Shown here: one piece after another, positions 204 through 32,935 of the stretch
Numbering within the stretch: position 1 is the first letter of the stretch
Layout: the number at the start of each line of letters is the position of its first letter
Source of the DNA: Thermoplasmata archaeon
Lineage (GTDB): Archaea; Thermoplasmatota; Thermoplasmata; Lutacidiplasmatales; UBA184
Direction of reading: 5' to 3'
Length of the DNA: 64,000 nucleotides
Assembly (NCBI GenBank): GCA_022750115.1
Contig: JAKIWI010000009.1
Coordinates: 1-64,000, forward strand
The notes under the pieces: model-generated
The model's input: only the letters and a program-made list of their open reading frames with translations
Databases searched by the model: none
What the model was told of the DNA's origin: nothing
Program-made: the position numbers and the translations under genes

Positions 204-944
204 GTGTCGAACCCCCCGGACGACATCCAAGCGAACCGATTTATACATCGATTCCGAGACGGGCACGTGGACGCCGAGCTCTCCGAGAAGATCGCAGGAG
301 AGGTCGTGCTTTCCGCCCACCCGGGGCGCACGCTCCGGAAATGGCGGGAGGATTTCGGTATCTCGCAGCGCGATCTCGCGAAATCACTCGAGACCGTCCC
401 CTCGGTTGTGAGCGACTACGAGTCGGAGCGGCGCGCGAGCCCCGGCGCGGCGTTCATCCGGCGCTACGTCTCCGCGCTCATCGACGTCGACCAGCAGAAC
501 GGCGCCCGCGTGAGCCAGCGGCTCGGGCTTCGTCCGCACTCCGACGGCATCCTCGGCCTGCGCGAGTTCGCGGTCGCCGTACCGCTGAAGGCGCTCTCCG
601 ACCGGCTCGAGGCCGAGCCGGTGAGCCGCGTCGACCTCCACCGCGACATCCACGGCTTCACGCTGCTCGATGCCCCCCGCGCGATCCTCTCGATCGACGC
701 CAGTCGGTTCGTCGAGGTGTACGGGTGGACGACCCAGCGCGCGCTCATCTTCTCGAACGTGAAGTACGGTCGCTCCCCCATGGTCGCGATTCGCGCCCAC
801 CCGCTCAAGCCGGCGGCCGTCGTCTTCTCGAACCCGGGCCGGGTCGACCCGCTCGCCGTCCGGCTGAGCGAGGTCGAGAACATCCCGCTCCTGACGACCG
901 AGCTCGGCGCGAACGACGTCCTCGAGCGTCTCGAAGAACTGTAG
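204..944 (+). CDS. XRE-type HTH transcriptional regulator of the mevalonate cluster
   Basis: The protein has 246 residues. Residues about 41-82 form a Cro/C1-type helix-turn-helix ([19 protein letters not shown] followed by a [13 protein letters not shown] recognition segment). The rest is an alpha/beta domain without obvious catalytic residues that may sense a ligand. A regulator of this kind commonly stands before HMG-CoA synthase genes in Euryarchaeota, so control of the next three genes is likely; this is inference from context. The GTG at 204 was chosen because it follows the upstream dyad closely. The stop at 942-944 abuts the synthase coding region, so both are probably on one mRNA. 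Confidence 0.82.
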
Positions 945-949
945 GAGGG

Positions 950-2017
950 ATCTCCACGAACCCGAACTTCGGAATCGTCAGTTACGGCGCGCACGTGCCG
1001 CTCTACCGGATCACGCCCGCGGAGATCGGCCGCGTCTGGGGGACCGACGGCGCCGCAATGGGCGCGGCCCTCGGTGTCCGCCGAAAGAGCGTGCCGGCTC
1101 CGGACGAGGACACGATCACGATCAGCACCGAGGCGCTCCGCACCGCGCTCATCCGCGGCAAGATCGACCCCCAGGAGATCGGCGCCCTCTACGTCGGCAG
1201 CGAATCCCACCCCTACGCTGTCAAGCCGACCGCCTCCGTCGTCGCCCAGGCCGTCGGTGCCACGCCGAACCTGACCGCGTCGGACTTCGAGTTCGCCTGC
1301 AAGGCCGGCACCGCGGCGATCCAAACGTGCCTCGGGCTCGTCGGCGCGGAGATGGTCCGCTACGGAGTCGCGATCGGCTCCGACACGTCACAAGGAGCGC
1401 CCGGCGACGCACTCGAGTATTCGGCGAGCGCGGGCGGCGCCGCCTTCGTCATCGGCCGCGAACGCGTCATCGCCAAGATCCGCCACACCCTTTCCTACAC
1501 GACGGACACGCCCGATTTCTGGCGGCGCGAGGGCCAGCGCTACCCGAGCCACGGCGGTCGGTTCACGGGCGAGCCCGCCTATTTCCGGCACGTCACGGAG
1601 TGCGCCCAGCGCCTGATGGAGCGCGCCGGGACGAACCCGAAATCGTACGCCCACGTCGTCTTCCACCAGCCGAACGGGAAGTTCCCGCAGCGGGTGGGCC
1701 GCATGCTCGGATTCACCGAGGCGCAGATGCGCTACGGCCTCGTCACGCCGCAGATCGGCAACACCTACTCCGGCGCGGCCCTGATCGGTCTCGCGAACGT
1801 CCTCGACGTAGCGAAGGCCGGCGAGCAGGTCCTGATGGTCGGCTACGGGAGCGGCGCCGGCTCCGACGCGTTCGACATCGAGGTCACCGACGAGATCAAC
1901 CGGTTCGACCGCTCGTACGGCACGCCGGTCCAGCAATTCCTCGACGGCGGGGTCGAGATCCCGTACGCCGTCTACGCGAAGTTCCGCGGGAAAATCCGGA
2001 TGGGAGGGGAGTCGTAG
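950..2017 (+). CDS. mvaS: hydroxymethylglutaryl-CoA synthase
   Basis: The enzyme condenses acetyl-CoA with acetoacetyl-CoA to HMG-CoA for archaeal isoprenoid lipids. Thiolase-fold features and the family triad are visible: Glu85 (in GSESHPY), the nucleophile Cys117 (in FEFACKAGT) and His239 (in VVFHQPNG), counted from base 950. Length is about 355 residues, as in archaeal homologues. The start is a problem. No ATG, GTG or TTG lies in frame before the conserved first strand GIVSYG, although the frame is open far upstream. The first downstream GTG (992) would remove that strand. ATC at 950 or ACG at 956, the latter 7 bases after a GGAGG motif, are the candidates. The stop is followed directly by the thiolase ATG. 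Confidence 0.9.
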
Positions 2018-3187
2018 ATGCGCGACGTCGCGATCCTCGGCATCGGACAGACCCGGTTCGGGGAGCTCTGGGACCGGTCGTTCCGGGAGATCGGCATCGA
2101 GGCCGGCTTCCAGGCGCTCGTCGACGCGCGGCTTTCGAGCCAAGACCTTGGCGCGCTCTACCTCGGCAACATGGCGAGCGGTTCGCTCATCGCCCAGGAG
2201 CACATCGCCCCGCTCATCCTCGACTACGCCGGTCTCGCCGGCCACCACTTCGGCGCGATCCGCGTCGAGGGCGGCGGGGCGTCCGGTGCGCTCGCGCTCC
2301 ACGAGGGCTGGCTCGCCGTGGCGAGCGGCGCCCACGACTTCGTCGTCGTCGGCGGCGCGGAGAAGCTCACCGATGTCCCCGACACCGAGGCGAACCGCGT
2401 CGCCTCGGGGACCGCCGACCACGAGTGGGAGGCGGTGTTCGGGGCGACGCTGCCGGCGCTCTGGGCGCTCGTCGCCCGGCGCCACATGCACGAGTACGGC
2501 ACGACGCGCGAGGACCTCGCCCGGGTCGCCGTCCACGCCCACGAGATGGGCGCGAAGAACCCGAACGCGCACTATCGCAACCGCCTCTCCCTCGAGGCCG
2601 TCCTCGGCGCGAGCCCGGTCGCCGAGCCGCTCGGGATGCTCGACTGCGCCCCGCTCTCCGACGGCGCGGCCGCGATCGTCCTCGGTCCGCTCGAACGCGC
2701 ACGCAAGTTCACCGACACGCCGATCCGCCTCGCGGCGAGCCAGGTTGCCTGCGACACGATGGCGCTCCACCACCGACGGGACATGACGACCCTCGACTCC
2801 ACCGTCGTCGCGGCGAAGCGGGCGTTCGCCCAGGCTCGGCGCACCGCCGCCGATGTCCGCGTCGCCGAGATCCACGATGCCTACACGATCAGCGCCCTCG
2901 TCGCGCTCGAGGACCTCGGGTTCGTCGACAAGGGGCGTGCGGGCCCGGAGTTCGCCTCCGGCGCCTTCGGTCCGACGGGAAAGCTCACCGTGAACACGTC
3001 CGGCGGCCTGAAGGCGCAGGGGCGCCCGTTCGGCGCCGTCGGCGTCGCCCAGGTCGTCGAGATCGTGCGCCAACTGCGGGGCGAGGCCGGGGACCGGCAG
3101 GTGTCGGGCGCCGAGCTCGGACTCGCGCACGACGTCGGCGGCACGGGAGCGACCAGCGTGGTGCACCTCATGGAACGGGTGAACTAG
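2018..3187 (+). CDS. archaeal thiolase homologue lacking catalytic Cys and His
   Basis: This 389-residue protein has the thiolase fold of the archaeal HMG-CoA synthase cluster (GIGQTRFGELW start, LGNMASG, HDAYTISALVALEDLGF, DVGGTGAT). In active relatives the nucleophile lies in VEAACASG; here the motif is VEGGGASG with Gly at residue 87. The second catalytic motif GHPxGATG reads GRPFGAVG with Arg336 in place of His. The gene starts directly after the synthase stop and precedes the DUF35 gene. In methanogens thiolase, synthase and DUF35 protein form one complex that channels acetoacetyl-CoA. This copy may be a structural partner without thiolysis activity, which is inference. Confidence 0.88.
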   Translation: MRDVAILGIGQTRFGELWDRSFREIGIEAGFQALVDARLSSQDLGALYLGNMASGSLIAQEHIAPLILDYAGLAGHHFGAIRVEGGGASGALALHEGWLAVASGAHDFVVVGGAEKLTDVPDTEANRVASGTADHEWEAVFGATLPALWALVARRHMHEYGTTREDLARVAVHAHEMGAKNPNAHYRNRLSLEAVLGASPVAEPLGMLDCAPLSDGAAAIVLGPLERARKFTDTPIRLAASQVACDTMALHHRRDMTTLDSTVVAAKRAFAQARRTAADVRVAEIHDAYTISALVALEDLGFVDKGRAGPEFASGAFGPTGKLTVNTSGGLKAQGRPFGAVGVAQVVEIVRQLRGEAGDRQVSGAELGLAHDVGGTGATSVVHLMERVN

Positions 3188-3199
3188 GAAGGCAGTACG

Positions 3200-3694
3200 A
3201 TGTCGATCGCACGATTCTGGAGAGAGACGCCGGTCCGCTACAACCTCGGAGGCTGCCGGTGCCCGACCTGCCTCACGGTCTATTTCCCGCCGCGCTCCGT
3301 CTGCCCGGTCTGCGTCCAGCACCGTAGCTCGATCGGCCGGCTCGAGCCGTTCCAGCTGTCGGGCGAAGGCGAGGTGGTCTCCTACACCGTCGTGCACGAC
3401 GCCGCGGAGGGGTTCGAGATGCAGGTGCCGTACGCGCTCGCGATCGTGAAGACGCGCGAGGGTCCGCAACTCACGGCCCCGGTCGTGGACATCGACCCGA
3501 GCGAAGTCCGGATCGGGCTGAAGGTGCGAGCGACCTTCCGCAAGCTCCGGGAGGAAGGGAAGGCCGGCGTCATCCACTACGGCTACAAGTTCGCCCCGAT
3601 GGACGATGTCCACCGGCCGCCGGAGCGACCGACCCAATCCGAGACCGCGCCGTCGACCGCGCCCACGGCGGTCGCCTCGGAATCGCGGGCGTGA
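3200..3694 (+). CDS. DUF35 OB-fold protein with rubredoxin-like zinc ribbon
   Basis: The protein has 164 residues. An N-terminal helix (ARFWRETPVRYNL) is followed by a zinc ribbon with ligands C21-x2-C24 and C35-x2-C38, then an OB-fold (GEGEVVSYTVVH through GLKVRATFRKL, about 50-125). The last 40 residues are Pro/Ser/Thr-rich and probably disordered. In archaea this family bridges thiolase and HMG-CoA synthase and holds the CoA of the passing intermediate. It is the third structural gene of the cluster, 12 bases after the thiolase stop. ATG 3200 has a purine-rich stretch before it. The stop overlaps the next GTG. Confidence 0.9.
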   Translation: MSIARFWRETPVRYNLGGCRCPTCLTVYFPPRSVCPVCVQHRSSIGRLEPFQLSGEGEVVSYTVVHDAAEGFEMQVPYALAIVKTREGPQLTAPVVDIDPSEVRIGLKVRATFRKLREEGKAGVIHYGYKFAPMDDVHRPPERPTQSETAPSTAPTAVASESRA

Positions 3695-30507: not shown

Positions 30508-31770
30508 ATGTTTCTCTCCTTCCACGAGACCCTCCACGACTCCGTCCGCCGCTTCCACCCCCCCGCGGGGCGGCCCGTCCACCTCTACGTCTGCGGCCCG
30601 ACCGTCTACGACCGGGCCCACGTGGGACACGCGCGGACGTACCTGTATTTCGACGTCGTCCGGCGGTTCCTCGAAGCCGAGGGCCGCACCGTCCGCTACG
30701 TCATGAACATCACCGACTTCGAGGACAAGATCTCGATCCGCGCCGCCGCGCTCGGCATCCCCTCGCGCACGCTCGCTCGGCGCGAGGAGGCGCGGTTCTT
30801 CCGCGACATCGACCGGTTGGGCATCCGCCCTCCGACGGACCGGCCGCGGGCAAGCGAGTACGTGCCCGAGATGGTCCGCGTCATCCGGCGGCTCGAGCGT
30901 CAGGGGTTCGCCGAGAAGAGCGAGGGTGCGCTCCTCTACTCCCCCCGGCGCAACCTCTGCACGCGCAACTTCCCCCTCGCCCACTCGCTCGAGCAGCTGA
31001 TCGTGCCCGAGCCCGGCGCGCCGTCGCCGCCGACCGACGGGACGGCGAGCGGGTTCGTCCTCTGGCGGCCCCCGACCCCGCCGTGCCCCTCGTGGCCCAG
31101 TCCGTGGGGCCGCGGTTCCCCCGGCTGGCACCTCGAGTGTTACGCGATGGCCCACCACCTGCTGGGGCTGCCCGTCGACCTCCACGGAGGGGGAGCCGAC
31201 CTGAAATTCCCGCACCACTACACGGAGAACGAGCTCGCCTGTTCGCTCGACCAGGTGTTGTTCTCCCGCTCGTTCCTCCACCTCCCGTTCGTGACCCAGA
31301 ACGGGGAGAAGATGTCGAAGTCGACGGGGAACCTGATCTCGCTCGCCGAGGCGCTCGACCACGCCGACGCCGACGCGCTCCGGTGGTACCTCCTCGGGAC
31401 GCCGTCGACCGACCGCCTCGAGTGGTCGACGCAGGGCTTCGACGACGCGATCCGGAGGTCGCGCGACGCGCATGCGACGCTCGCCGCGGCGGTCCCCGAC
31501 GGCGCCGGAGGTTCGCTCTCCGTCGCCGGCCTTCGCACGCTGCGACGCGGGGTCGCCCACGACATCGCGGACCGCCTGGGGGTCGACCGGGCCCTGGGCC
31601 GCATCGAGACGTACACGACGGGCATCGCGCGGCGCTCCAACCCCCGGTATCCCCGGGGGTCCCGCCGCGAAGTGAACGCGGAGCTCGGCGCGATCGACCG
31701 GCTGCTCGGGATGCGGTTCTCGAAGCCCGCGTCCGGCGCTACCGGCGCTCGCGCTCGACGAGCAGGCTGA
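30508..31770 (+). CDS. cysS: cysteinyl-tRNA synthetase
   Basis: 420 residues, somewhat shorter than the usual 460-480. The class I motifs are HVGH (38-41) and KMSKS (268-272). The zinc ligand Cys29 lies in YVCGPTVYDRAHVGHARTY; PGWHLECYAMAHHLLG and GGGADLKFPHHYTENELA are also typical. The anticodon-binding end appears trimmed, and the last 15 residues (GATGARARRAG) are Arg-rich. The 3' end overlaps the convergent thiolase gene by 32 bases. A TATA-like GCTTATGC at 30472-30479 lies about 30 bases before ATG 30508. Confidence 0.95.
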   Translation: MFLSFHETLHDSVRRFHPPAGRPVHLYVCGPTVYDRAHVGHARTYLYFDVVRRFLEAEGRTVRYVMNITDFEDKISIRAAALGIPSRTLARREEARFFRDIDRLGIRPPTDRPRASEYVPEMVRVIRRLERQGFAEKSEGALLYSPRRNLCTRNFPLAHSLEQLIVPEPGAPSPPTDGTASGFVLWRPPTPPCPSWPSPWGRGSPGWHLECYAMAHHLLGLPVDLHGGGADLKFPHHYTENELACSLDQVLFSRSFLHLPFVTQNGEKMSKSTGNLISLAEALDHADADALRWYLLGTPSTDRLEWSTQGFDDAIRRSRDAHATLAAAVPDGAGGSLSVAGLRTLRRGVAHDIADRLGVDRALGRIETYTTGIARRSNPRYPRGSRREVNAELGAIDRLLGMRFSKPASGATGARARRAG

Positions 31771-32935
31771 GCCCGTTCCCGCCCCCCATGCAGAGGGTGG
31801 CGAGGCCGAGATGGGAGTTCGACCGCAGCATCTCGTGGACGAGCGTGACGACGATCCGGGCGCCGCTCGCCCCGATGGGGTGACCGAGCGCGACGGCGCC
31901 GCCGTGGACGTTGAACTGCTGGTCGGTGAAGCCGAAGGCGCGCTGGACCGCGATCGAGGAGGAGGCGAACGCCTCGTTGTGCTCGACGCGGTCGATGTCG
32001 GTTGGCGCGACCCCCACGCGAGCGAGGTGCGCCCGCACGGTCGGGATCGGGGCTTCCATCACCTCCGAAGGGTCGACGCCTCCGACCTCGTGGGAGTGCA
32101 GGTAGGCGATCGGGGACCGGCCAAGCCGATGGGCCTCCTCCTCGCTGGTCAAGACGAGGGCGGCGGCCCCGTCGGAGAGCTGGGAGGAGTTGCCGGCGGT
32201 GAGGAGGCCGTCGGGGCGGAACGAGGGCTTGAGCCGTCCGAGGCTCTCGAGCGTGGAGTCCCCGCGGGGTCCCTCATCGTGGACGAACGGGGCCTTCGGG
32301 CCGAGGGACGCCGGAACCGGCACCGTCTCGGCGTCGAACGTTCCGTCGGCGTTCGCCCGGGCCGCCAGGCGGTGGCTGCGGACGGAGAACGCATCGACGT
32401 CGGCGCGGGTCAGATGGAGCTTCTGCGCGATCCGCTCTCCCGAGTGGCCCATCGCCTCGTGTTCGCCGTAGGCGTCGAGGAGGCTGTCGCGCATCATCTC
32501 GTCGTCGAGTGTGGTCGCCCCGGGCTTCATCCCCCAGCGGACCGCCGAGGGCACGAGGAACGGTGCGCTGGACATCGATTCCATGCCCCCGACGAGGGCG
32601 ACCGAGACGTCGCCGGCGCGGATCATCGCTGAGGCGAGGAGGATCGCGCGCATCCCCGAGCCGCAGACCATGTTGACCGTCACGGCCCCCGACGAGTCGG
32701 GGATCCCGACGGCGCGGAGGACCTGACGGGCCGGGTTCTGGCCGGTGCCCGCCTGCAGGCAGTGTCCCAGGACGACGTCGGGGACCTGGTCGGGGGGTAC
32801 GCCGCTCCGGGTCAGGGCGGCCTGGGCGGCGAGAGCGCCGAGCTGGACCGCCGGGACCGTGCGGAGGGTTCCGCCGTACTTCCCGATCGGCGTGCGCGCC
32901 GCCGAGAGGATCGCAACGCGGCGAGGAGCGCTCAT
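31739..32935 (-). CDS. acetyl-CoA acetyltransferase (thiolase) with full active site
   Basis: 398 residues. All three motifs of an active thiolase are present: nucleophile Cys91 in NMVCGSGM, His in GGAVALGHPIGASG, and Cys in LCMGGGNG near the C-terminus. It can make acetoacetyl-CoA from two acetyl-CoA or split 3-ketoacyl-CoA in beta-oxidation. No pathway partner is adjacent. It may supply the HMG-CoA synthase at 1-2 kb, since the thiolase homologue there has lost its catalytic residues; that is inference. ATG 32935 is 22-32 bases after a TATA-like CCTCTTAATCC (minus strand). Confidence 0.95.
   Translation of the reverse strand: MSAPRRVAILSAARTPIGKYGGTLRTVPAVQLGALAAQAALTRSGVPPDQVPDVVLGHCLQAGTGQNPARQVLRAVGIPDSSGAVTVNMVCGSGMRAILLASAMIRAGDVSVALVGGMESMSSAPFLVPSAVRWGMKPGATTLDDEMMRDSLLDAYGEHEAMGHSGERIAQKLHLTRADVDAFSVRSHRLAARANADGTFDAETVPVPASLGPKAPFVHDEGPRGDSTLESLGRLKPSFRPDGLLTAGNSSQLSDGAAALVLTSEEEAHRLGRSPIAYLHSHEVGGVDPSEVMEAPIPTVRAHLARVGVAPTDIDRVEHNEAFASSSIAVQRAFGFTDQQFNVHGGAVALGHPIGASGARIVVTLVHEMLRSNSHLGLATLCMGGGNGLSLLVERERR

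Follow-up and report, generated by a model that had tools for sequence, protein, structure and literature searches.

The window (the whole 64,000-nucleotide stretch of DNA analysed here) carries an HMG-CoA synthesis operon at 941-3694, in which the HMG-CoA synthase (HMGCS) gene is followed by a thiolase gene and a DUF35 gene. The operon, the gene before it, three codons of the thiolase and a second thiolase gene are listed below.

204-944, + strand: HTH (XRE-like) regulator gene just ahead of the operon, of side interest here; an ORF whose HTH nature was judged by eye from the sequence
941-2017, + strand: archaeal HMG-CoA synthase with catalytic Glu88, Cys120 and His242 (numbering from base 941); TIGR00748 521.7 bits, PRK04262 530.7 bits
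2018-3187, + strand: catalytically degenerate acetoacetyl-CoA thiolase subunit (putative pseudo-thiolase), a 389 aa ORF; 6esq_A, E 1.3e-104
2276-2278, + strand: codon 87, GGG (Gly), at the nucleophilic Cys position, from codon reading and 6esq_A alignment
2879-2881, + strand: codon 288, GCC (Ala), at the HDCF Cys position (reads HDAYT), from codon reading and alignment
3023-3025, + strand: codon 336, CGC (Arg), at the GHP His position, from codon reading and alignment
3200-3694, + strand: DUF35 / ChsH2-type bridging subunit, zinc ribbon plus OB-fold; PF01796, PF12172; 6esq_E, E 4.4e-37
31739-32935, - strand: intact class-I acetyl-CoA C-acetyltransferase, the proposed catalytic replacement; TIGR01930 410 bits; Cys91, NEAF, His352 and Cys382

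The HMGCS had its best PDB match in 6esq_I (E 3.6e-137), and all three operon products matched one solved complex best, 6ESQ/6ET9. The ATG of the thiolase gene directly abuts the HMGCS stop codon. The regulator gene, for which no NCBIfam match was found, overlaps the start of the operon, and a similar gene lies before the operon at locus L367 (343-1011); genes of this type are suggested to be operon-specific regulators.

Catalytic residues of the operon thiolase

We compared the 2018-3187 protein with solved structures using HMMER. The best solved relative was the M. thermolithotrophicus acetoacetyl-CoA thiolase, which is chain A of 6ESQ. In the archaeal thiolase/HMG-CoA synthase/DUF35 complex, the ORF's ortholog is the acetoacetyl-CoA thiolase. 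In the alignment, Gly87 lay opposite Cys85 (RVEGGGASG in the window, RVEAACASG in 6esq_A), the active Cys of the M. thermolithotrophicus subunit (PMC6392133), and Arg336 lay opposite the His of the GHA/GHP motif (GLKAQGRPFGAVG in the window, GLKAAGHALGATG in 6esq_A). The initial annotation had claimed both replacements, and codons and alignment agreed with it. A third catalytic loss, absent from that annotation, was found at the HDCF Cys, which is Ala288; the HDCF His is retained as His286, although some relatives lack it. The annotation had also called for alignment with archaeal thiolases of the same cluster, and in the 6esq_A alignment no other Cys or His of the protein fell into the lost catalytic places.

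The AlphaFold2 model of the protein had a pLDDT of 91.2 and superposed on 6esq_A with a TM-score of 0.97 and an rmsd of 1.1 Å, placing it, as predicted, in the thiolase fold. This result and the intact gene order agree with the earlier claim that fold and operon position were kept despite the catalytic loss. In profile searches, the protein scored 493.4 bits against PRK06064, above the cut-off of 420, and 499.1 bits against NF053570, below the equivalog cut-off of 600. By sequence relationship and operon, it belongs with the archaeal HMGCS-associated acetoacetyl-CoA thiolases (NF053570 / PRK06064). A functional thiolase (EC 2.3.1.9) has a nucleophilic Cys in a CxS motif, an HDCF Cys and a GHP His, at which positions this protein has Gly87, Ala288 and Arg336.

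The archaeal thiolase/HMG-CoA synthase complex has been described as a channelling machine that avoids the release of acetoacetyl-CoA; Vogeli et al. 2018 is reportedly the original structure paper of the 6ESQ complex. The window operon shares with 6ESQ the three subunits, the gene order, the predicted fold of the thiolase subunit and the HMGCS active site. It differs in that its thiolase has no Cys85 equivalent, HDCF Cys or GHP His, so that channelling of acetoacetyl-CoA from the thiolase subunit could not operate as described for 6ESQ. No mention of this catalytic loss was found in the open-access literature searched, a scope outside which Vogeli 2018 lies, so prior notice is possible.

Spread of the loss in Thermoplasmatota

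Orthologs of the operon thiolase were sampled densely in one phylum, Thermoplasmatota. All 61 sampled genomes of the window's family had a match, nearly always one clear ortholog with 68-92% identity, and the next paralog in these genomes was far below this range (about 43%). The initial annotation had proposed looking for the same substitutions in related genomes, and they recurred: the nucleophilic Cys was absent in 51 of 51 same-family orthologs read (VEGGGASG or VEAGGASG, mostly with GRP or GQP) and in 132 of the 175 operon orthologs across the phylum, with 43 retaining it. Residue 87 of the Cys-less orthologs was Gly in 93, Ser in 13, Asp in 13, Thr in 9, Glu in 3 and Asn in 1. The second (HDCF) Cys was retained in 3/132 Cys-less versus 40/43 Cys-containing orthologs, and the GHP His in 25/132 versus 42/43, with Arg (39), Gln (29), Asn (13), Asp (12), Tyr (11), Cys (2) or Phe (1) replacing it in the Cys-less proteins. 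At the HDCF His position (286), Cys-less relatives mostly have His, and sometimes Asn, Asp, Phe or Tyr.

The partner genes were conserved. HMGCS, thiolase and DUF35 genes were adjacent in the same order at 173 of 174 loci, and the HMGCS Glu/Cys/His triad was complete in all 167 fully readable orthologs, 125 of which adjoin a Cys-less thiolase. The four Cys of the DUF35 zinc ribbon were conserved in all common patterns at related loci. No mixed family occurred among those sampled, the Cys having been lost family by family. The catalytic loss is an old, lineage-wide trait of almost all sampled Thermoplasmata, the class to which the window belongs, beyond a local oddity of the window.

Among the best 80 loci of a contig scan, named groups outside Thermoplasmatota kept the Cys (Methanobacteriales, Methanosarcinales, Altarchaeales, Wukongarchaeota and several bacteria). 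The Cys-less exceptions bore loose labels such as Euryarchaeota. One more exception, a MAG with the label Halobacteriales (L328), reads VEAADASG/GHPPGA, the motif of families f36 and f41 of Thermoplasmatota. Genomes G095, G073 and G061, in which the operon thiolase had appeared to be missing, contain fragments of it with the same degenerate motifs. In families f38 and f44, this HMGCS type was not found at E 1e-20; genomes such as G178, G185, G194 and G206 had no archaeal-type HMGCS at that threshold and no operon thiolase, but did have class-I thiolases, and these families may use another HMGCS type.

Class-I thiolase as candidate replacement

The initial annotation had named the gene at 31739-32935 as a second, complete thiolase, and its TIGR01930 score and four catalytic motifs confirmed this. 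We looked for class-I relatives in two sets, 147 genomes from the phylum and 120 from the class. A class-I thiolase was present in 90 of 94 Cys-less versus 17 of 43 Cys-containing genomes (Fisher p 9e-13) and in 32 of 34 Cys-less versus 5 of 11 Cys-containing families (p 0.001), p-values that overstate the link because the independent losses are too few. The four Cys-less genomes without class I were 74, 74, 83 and 90% complete, and the 90% assembly is split into 590 contigs. Class I also occurs outside the Cys-less genomes, in the Cys-containing families f37, f33, f35, f40 and f42. The Cys, NE, His and Cys motifs were intact in 54 of 54 class-I loci checked, some being the same gene counted twice. 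In a PF00108 scan of 27 genomes, nine genomes of the Methanomassiliicoccales type (f7) had two thiolases and no more, the Cys-less one plus class I; in six Cys-containing genomes the operon thiolase was the sole thiolase.

To place the loss on a phylogeny, a 117-row tree was built without the catalytic columns. Parsimony on this tree gave at least four changes of the Cys trait; a single Cys-less clade had an AU test p of 0.08, so monophyly was not rejected. Independent pairs yielded 2-4 contrasts, almost all of which pointed the expected way; their number is too small for significance. One lies within a supported clade that holds f14 (Cys kept, no class I; related to DHVE2 records) together with f26 and f18 (Cys-less, class I present), and another sets f6 and f11 (Cys kept, no class I) against a large Cys-less clade. 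Independent losses of the Cys thus number about two to four, and the co-occurrence of class I with Cys loss is strong as a pattern and weak as an event count.

Gene neighbourhoods of the class-I genes were then examined, and no mevalonate operon was found around them. The gene stands between unrelated genes in f7 and f21, where loci L359-L363 show conserved TiaS-like (xxVAxDDTDS) and peptidase-like neighbours (names guessed from motifs). In f26, class-I and 3-hydroxyacyl-CoA dehydrogenase-like genes divergently adjoin the HMGCS operon, and in single genomes of f18, f35 and f8 the class-I gene adjoins the same kind of dehydrogenase-like gene (names judged from N-terminal motifs); this pairing in several lineages suggests that class I has other duties. 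At locus L358 (G147:C13:8500-17500), class-I and 3-hydroxyacyl-CoA dehydrogenase-like genes lie next to and divergent from an HMGCS operon whose thiolase carries Ser in place of the Cys and retains the GHP His, possibly an early stage of replacement.

These findings indicate that the stand-alone, bacterial-type class-I thiolase, instead of the operon subunit, most likely makes acetoacetyl-CoA. The proposed replacement is firmest in the methanogens, because no other thiolase was found there. It appears less firm for the window genome, given further intact SCP2-type thiolases (L002, L003 and L005). Two more SCP2-type paralogs of this genome lack the nucleophilic Cys and keep GHP: L004 (G000:C5:244922-246031; VEAASASG) and L006-L008 (G000:C18, about 68090-69247; RLEWGGATGG).

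Role of the retained subunit

Selection on the thiolase gene was assessed within the window's family and across the Cys-less proteins. Within the family, dN/dS was 0.08-0.28 (NG86), the same range as for HMGCS. Column entropy, compared between 43 Cys-containing and 74 Cys-less sequences, ranked the catalytic positions among the most relaxed of 386 sites (336 second, 87 fourth, 288 twentieth). The permutation p for this relaxation was about 1e-4, with position 87 itself defining the groups and the Cys-less set being more diverse for all three subunits. Stretches 125-132 and 140-149 were also among the most relaxed, and 58 positions were near-invariant in Cys-less proteins. With dN/dS of about 0.1-0.3 and the gene order kept, the thiolase gene shows no decay and remains tied to its partners. 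Drift of the catalytic sites into many residues fits lost catalysis better than one new shared chemistry.

We favour, as a likely though not secure explanation, that class I took over the condensation and that the dead subunit was kept in the complex in a structural, non-catalytic and possibly CoA-binding role. The operon thiolase has lost both Cys residues, the acyl-accepting one and the second, and in most cases also the GHP His; the Cys-less subunit could presumably not form acetoacetyl-CoA through thiolase chemistry any more. Acetoacetyl-CoA would come from the stand-alone class-I thiolase and then be used by HMG-CoA synthase. The dead subunit would hold the complex together and may still complete a shared CoA pocket; DUF35 and HMG-CoA synthase are assembled around it, which is presumably why it was kept, and without it the complex would probably fall apart. 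In the M. thermolithotrophicus complex, DUF35 ties the thiolase to HMGCS and CoA lies at the interface of all three proteins (PMC6392133; PMC12329534). The PhlABC acyltransferase of Pseudomonas protegens (PDB 5M3K) is a homologous three-part complex with one dead subunit of the thiolase-superfamily fold: its HMGCS-like PhlA has Gly for Cys and no Glu, and active enzyme was obtained only from whole-operon expression (PMC6392133). In PhlABC, however, the thiolase-like PhlC is active and the HMGCS-like subunit dead, the reverse of the window operon, so that it would offer a mirror precedent for a dead subunit kept in a complex. As in PhlA, lost catalytic residues occur here together with an intact partner enzyme and purifying selection.

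If the subunit is dead, the larger part of a major archaeal class, with Ferroplasma, Methanomassiliicoccales and numerous uncultured lineages among its members, has kept a complex without its first active site, and the first enzyme complex of isoprenoid (membrane-lipid) synthesis is affected. This would amount to a natural experiment on the functions that the complex has besides channelling, and it predicts an essential role of a stand-alone thiolase in membrane lipid synthesis. The acetyl-CoA acetyltransferase annotation of these operon genes is probably wrong about function.

Other readings were weighed against this structural role. The subunit could go beyond a plain scaffold as a substrate-receiving or regulatory part that binds acetoacetyl-CoA made by class I (or acetyl-CoA) and hands it on to HMGCS via the shared CoA site, which we consider possible but rather unlikely. 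The CoA at the three-protein interface speaks for it, as do the structures of the thiolase-like SLP of T. brucei with bound acetoacetyl-CoA and malonyl-CoA (5ab6/5ab7) and the GGLK and GxG around the C-terminal loops, which are among the 58 near-invariant positions; against it, 125-132 and 140-149, expected to lie close to the active site, belong to the most relaxed stretches. Its strict form, an obligate acyl-CoA-receiving subunit whose dead cavity is kept in Thermoplasmata as a port for class-I acetoacetyl-CoA into HMG-CoA synthase, seems doubtful to us. The incomplete 27-contig assembly of the window genome might raise the suspicion of an error in sequencing or assembly, or of a pseudogene in decay. 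Such an explanation has practically no chance and is refuted by the same loss in orthologs from 132 assemblies, including complete genomes such as that of Ferroplasma acidarmanus Fer1, by the open frames and by dN/dS well below 1.

The initial annotation had offered either a scaffold or a different chemistry. The scaffold fits better, with operon, fold and purifying selection kept; an enzyme with different chemistry and Gly87 in a new active site, aldolase-like as Ltp2/CtSal or decarboxylase-like, is quite improbable, since positions 87, 286, 288 and 336 vary between and within families and the operon is purely one of HMG-CoA synthesis. KSQ-type decarboxylases have Gln at the Cys position; none of the 132 Cys-less proteins has Gln at 87, and this candidate was rejected. 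The steroid side-chain aldolases Ltp2-ChsH2(DUF35) and CtSal-CtShy share the thiolase fold, a DUF35 partner and the lack of a nucleophilic Cys, and CtSal shows that a DUF35-partnered thiolase-fold protein with Gly at this position can be an aldolase (PMC12329534). Their catalytic Tyr in YDCY/YDHF is nevertheless His here (His286, HDAYT) and in most relatives, and their operons differ. Retained thiolase activity with a substitute nucleophile (Ser or Asp at 87, or Cys at 89) is very improbable. Some relatives have Ser or Asp at 87, and a subclade (L064-L067, L074, L276, L280 and L317) reads VEGGGACG, the nucleophilic Cys being gone and a new Cys standing two residues on; but the window protein has Gly87 and Ser89, and the reading was rejected for want of conservation at 87/89 among relatives. 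Exchange of the nucleophilic Cys for Ala or Ser is the usual way to inactivate SCP2 thiolases, and 3zbk/3zbl are constructs of this kind.

Thiolase-fold proteins more distant from the retained subunit were also compared. ST0096 of Sulfolobus tokodaii (PDB 4YZO) and T. brucei SLP (5AB4-5AB7) share the fold, and ST0096 lacks the nucleophilic Cys in the alignment; both are only about 30% identical to the window protein, and ST0096 keeps GHP.
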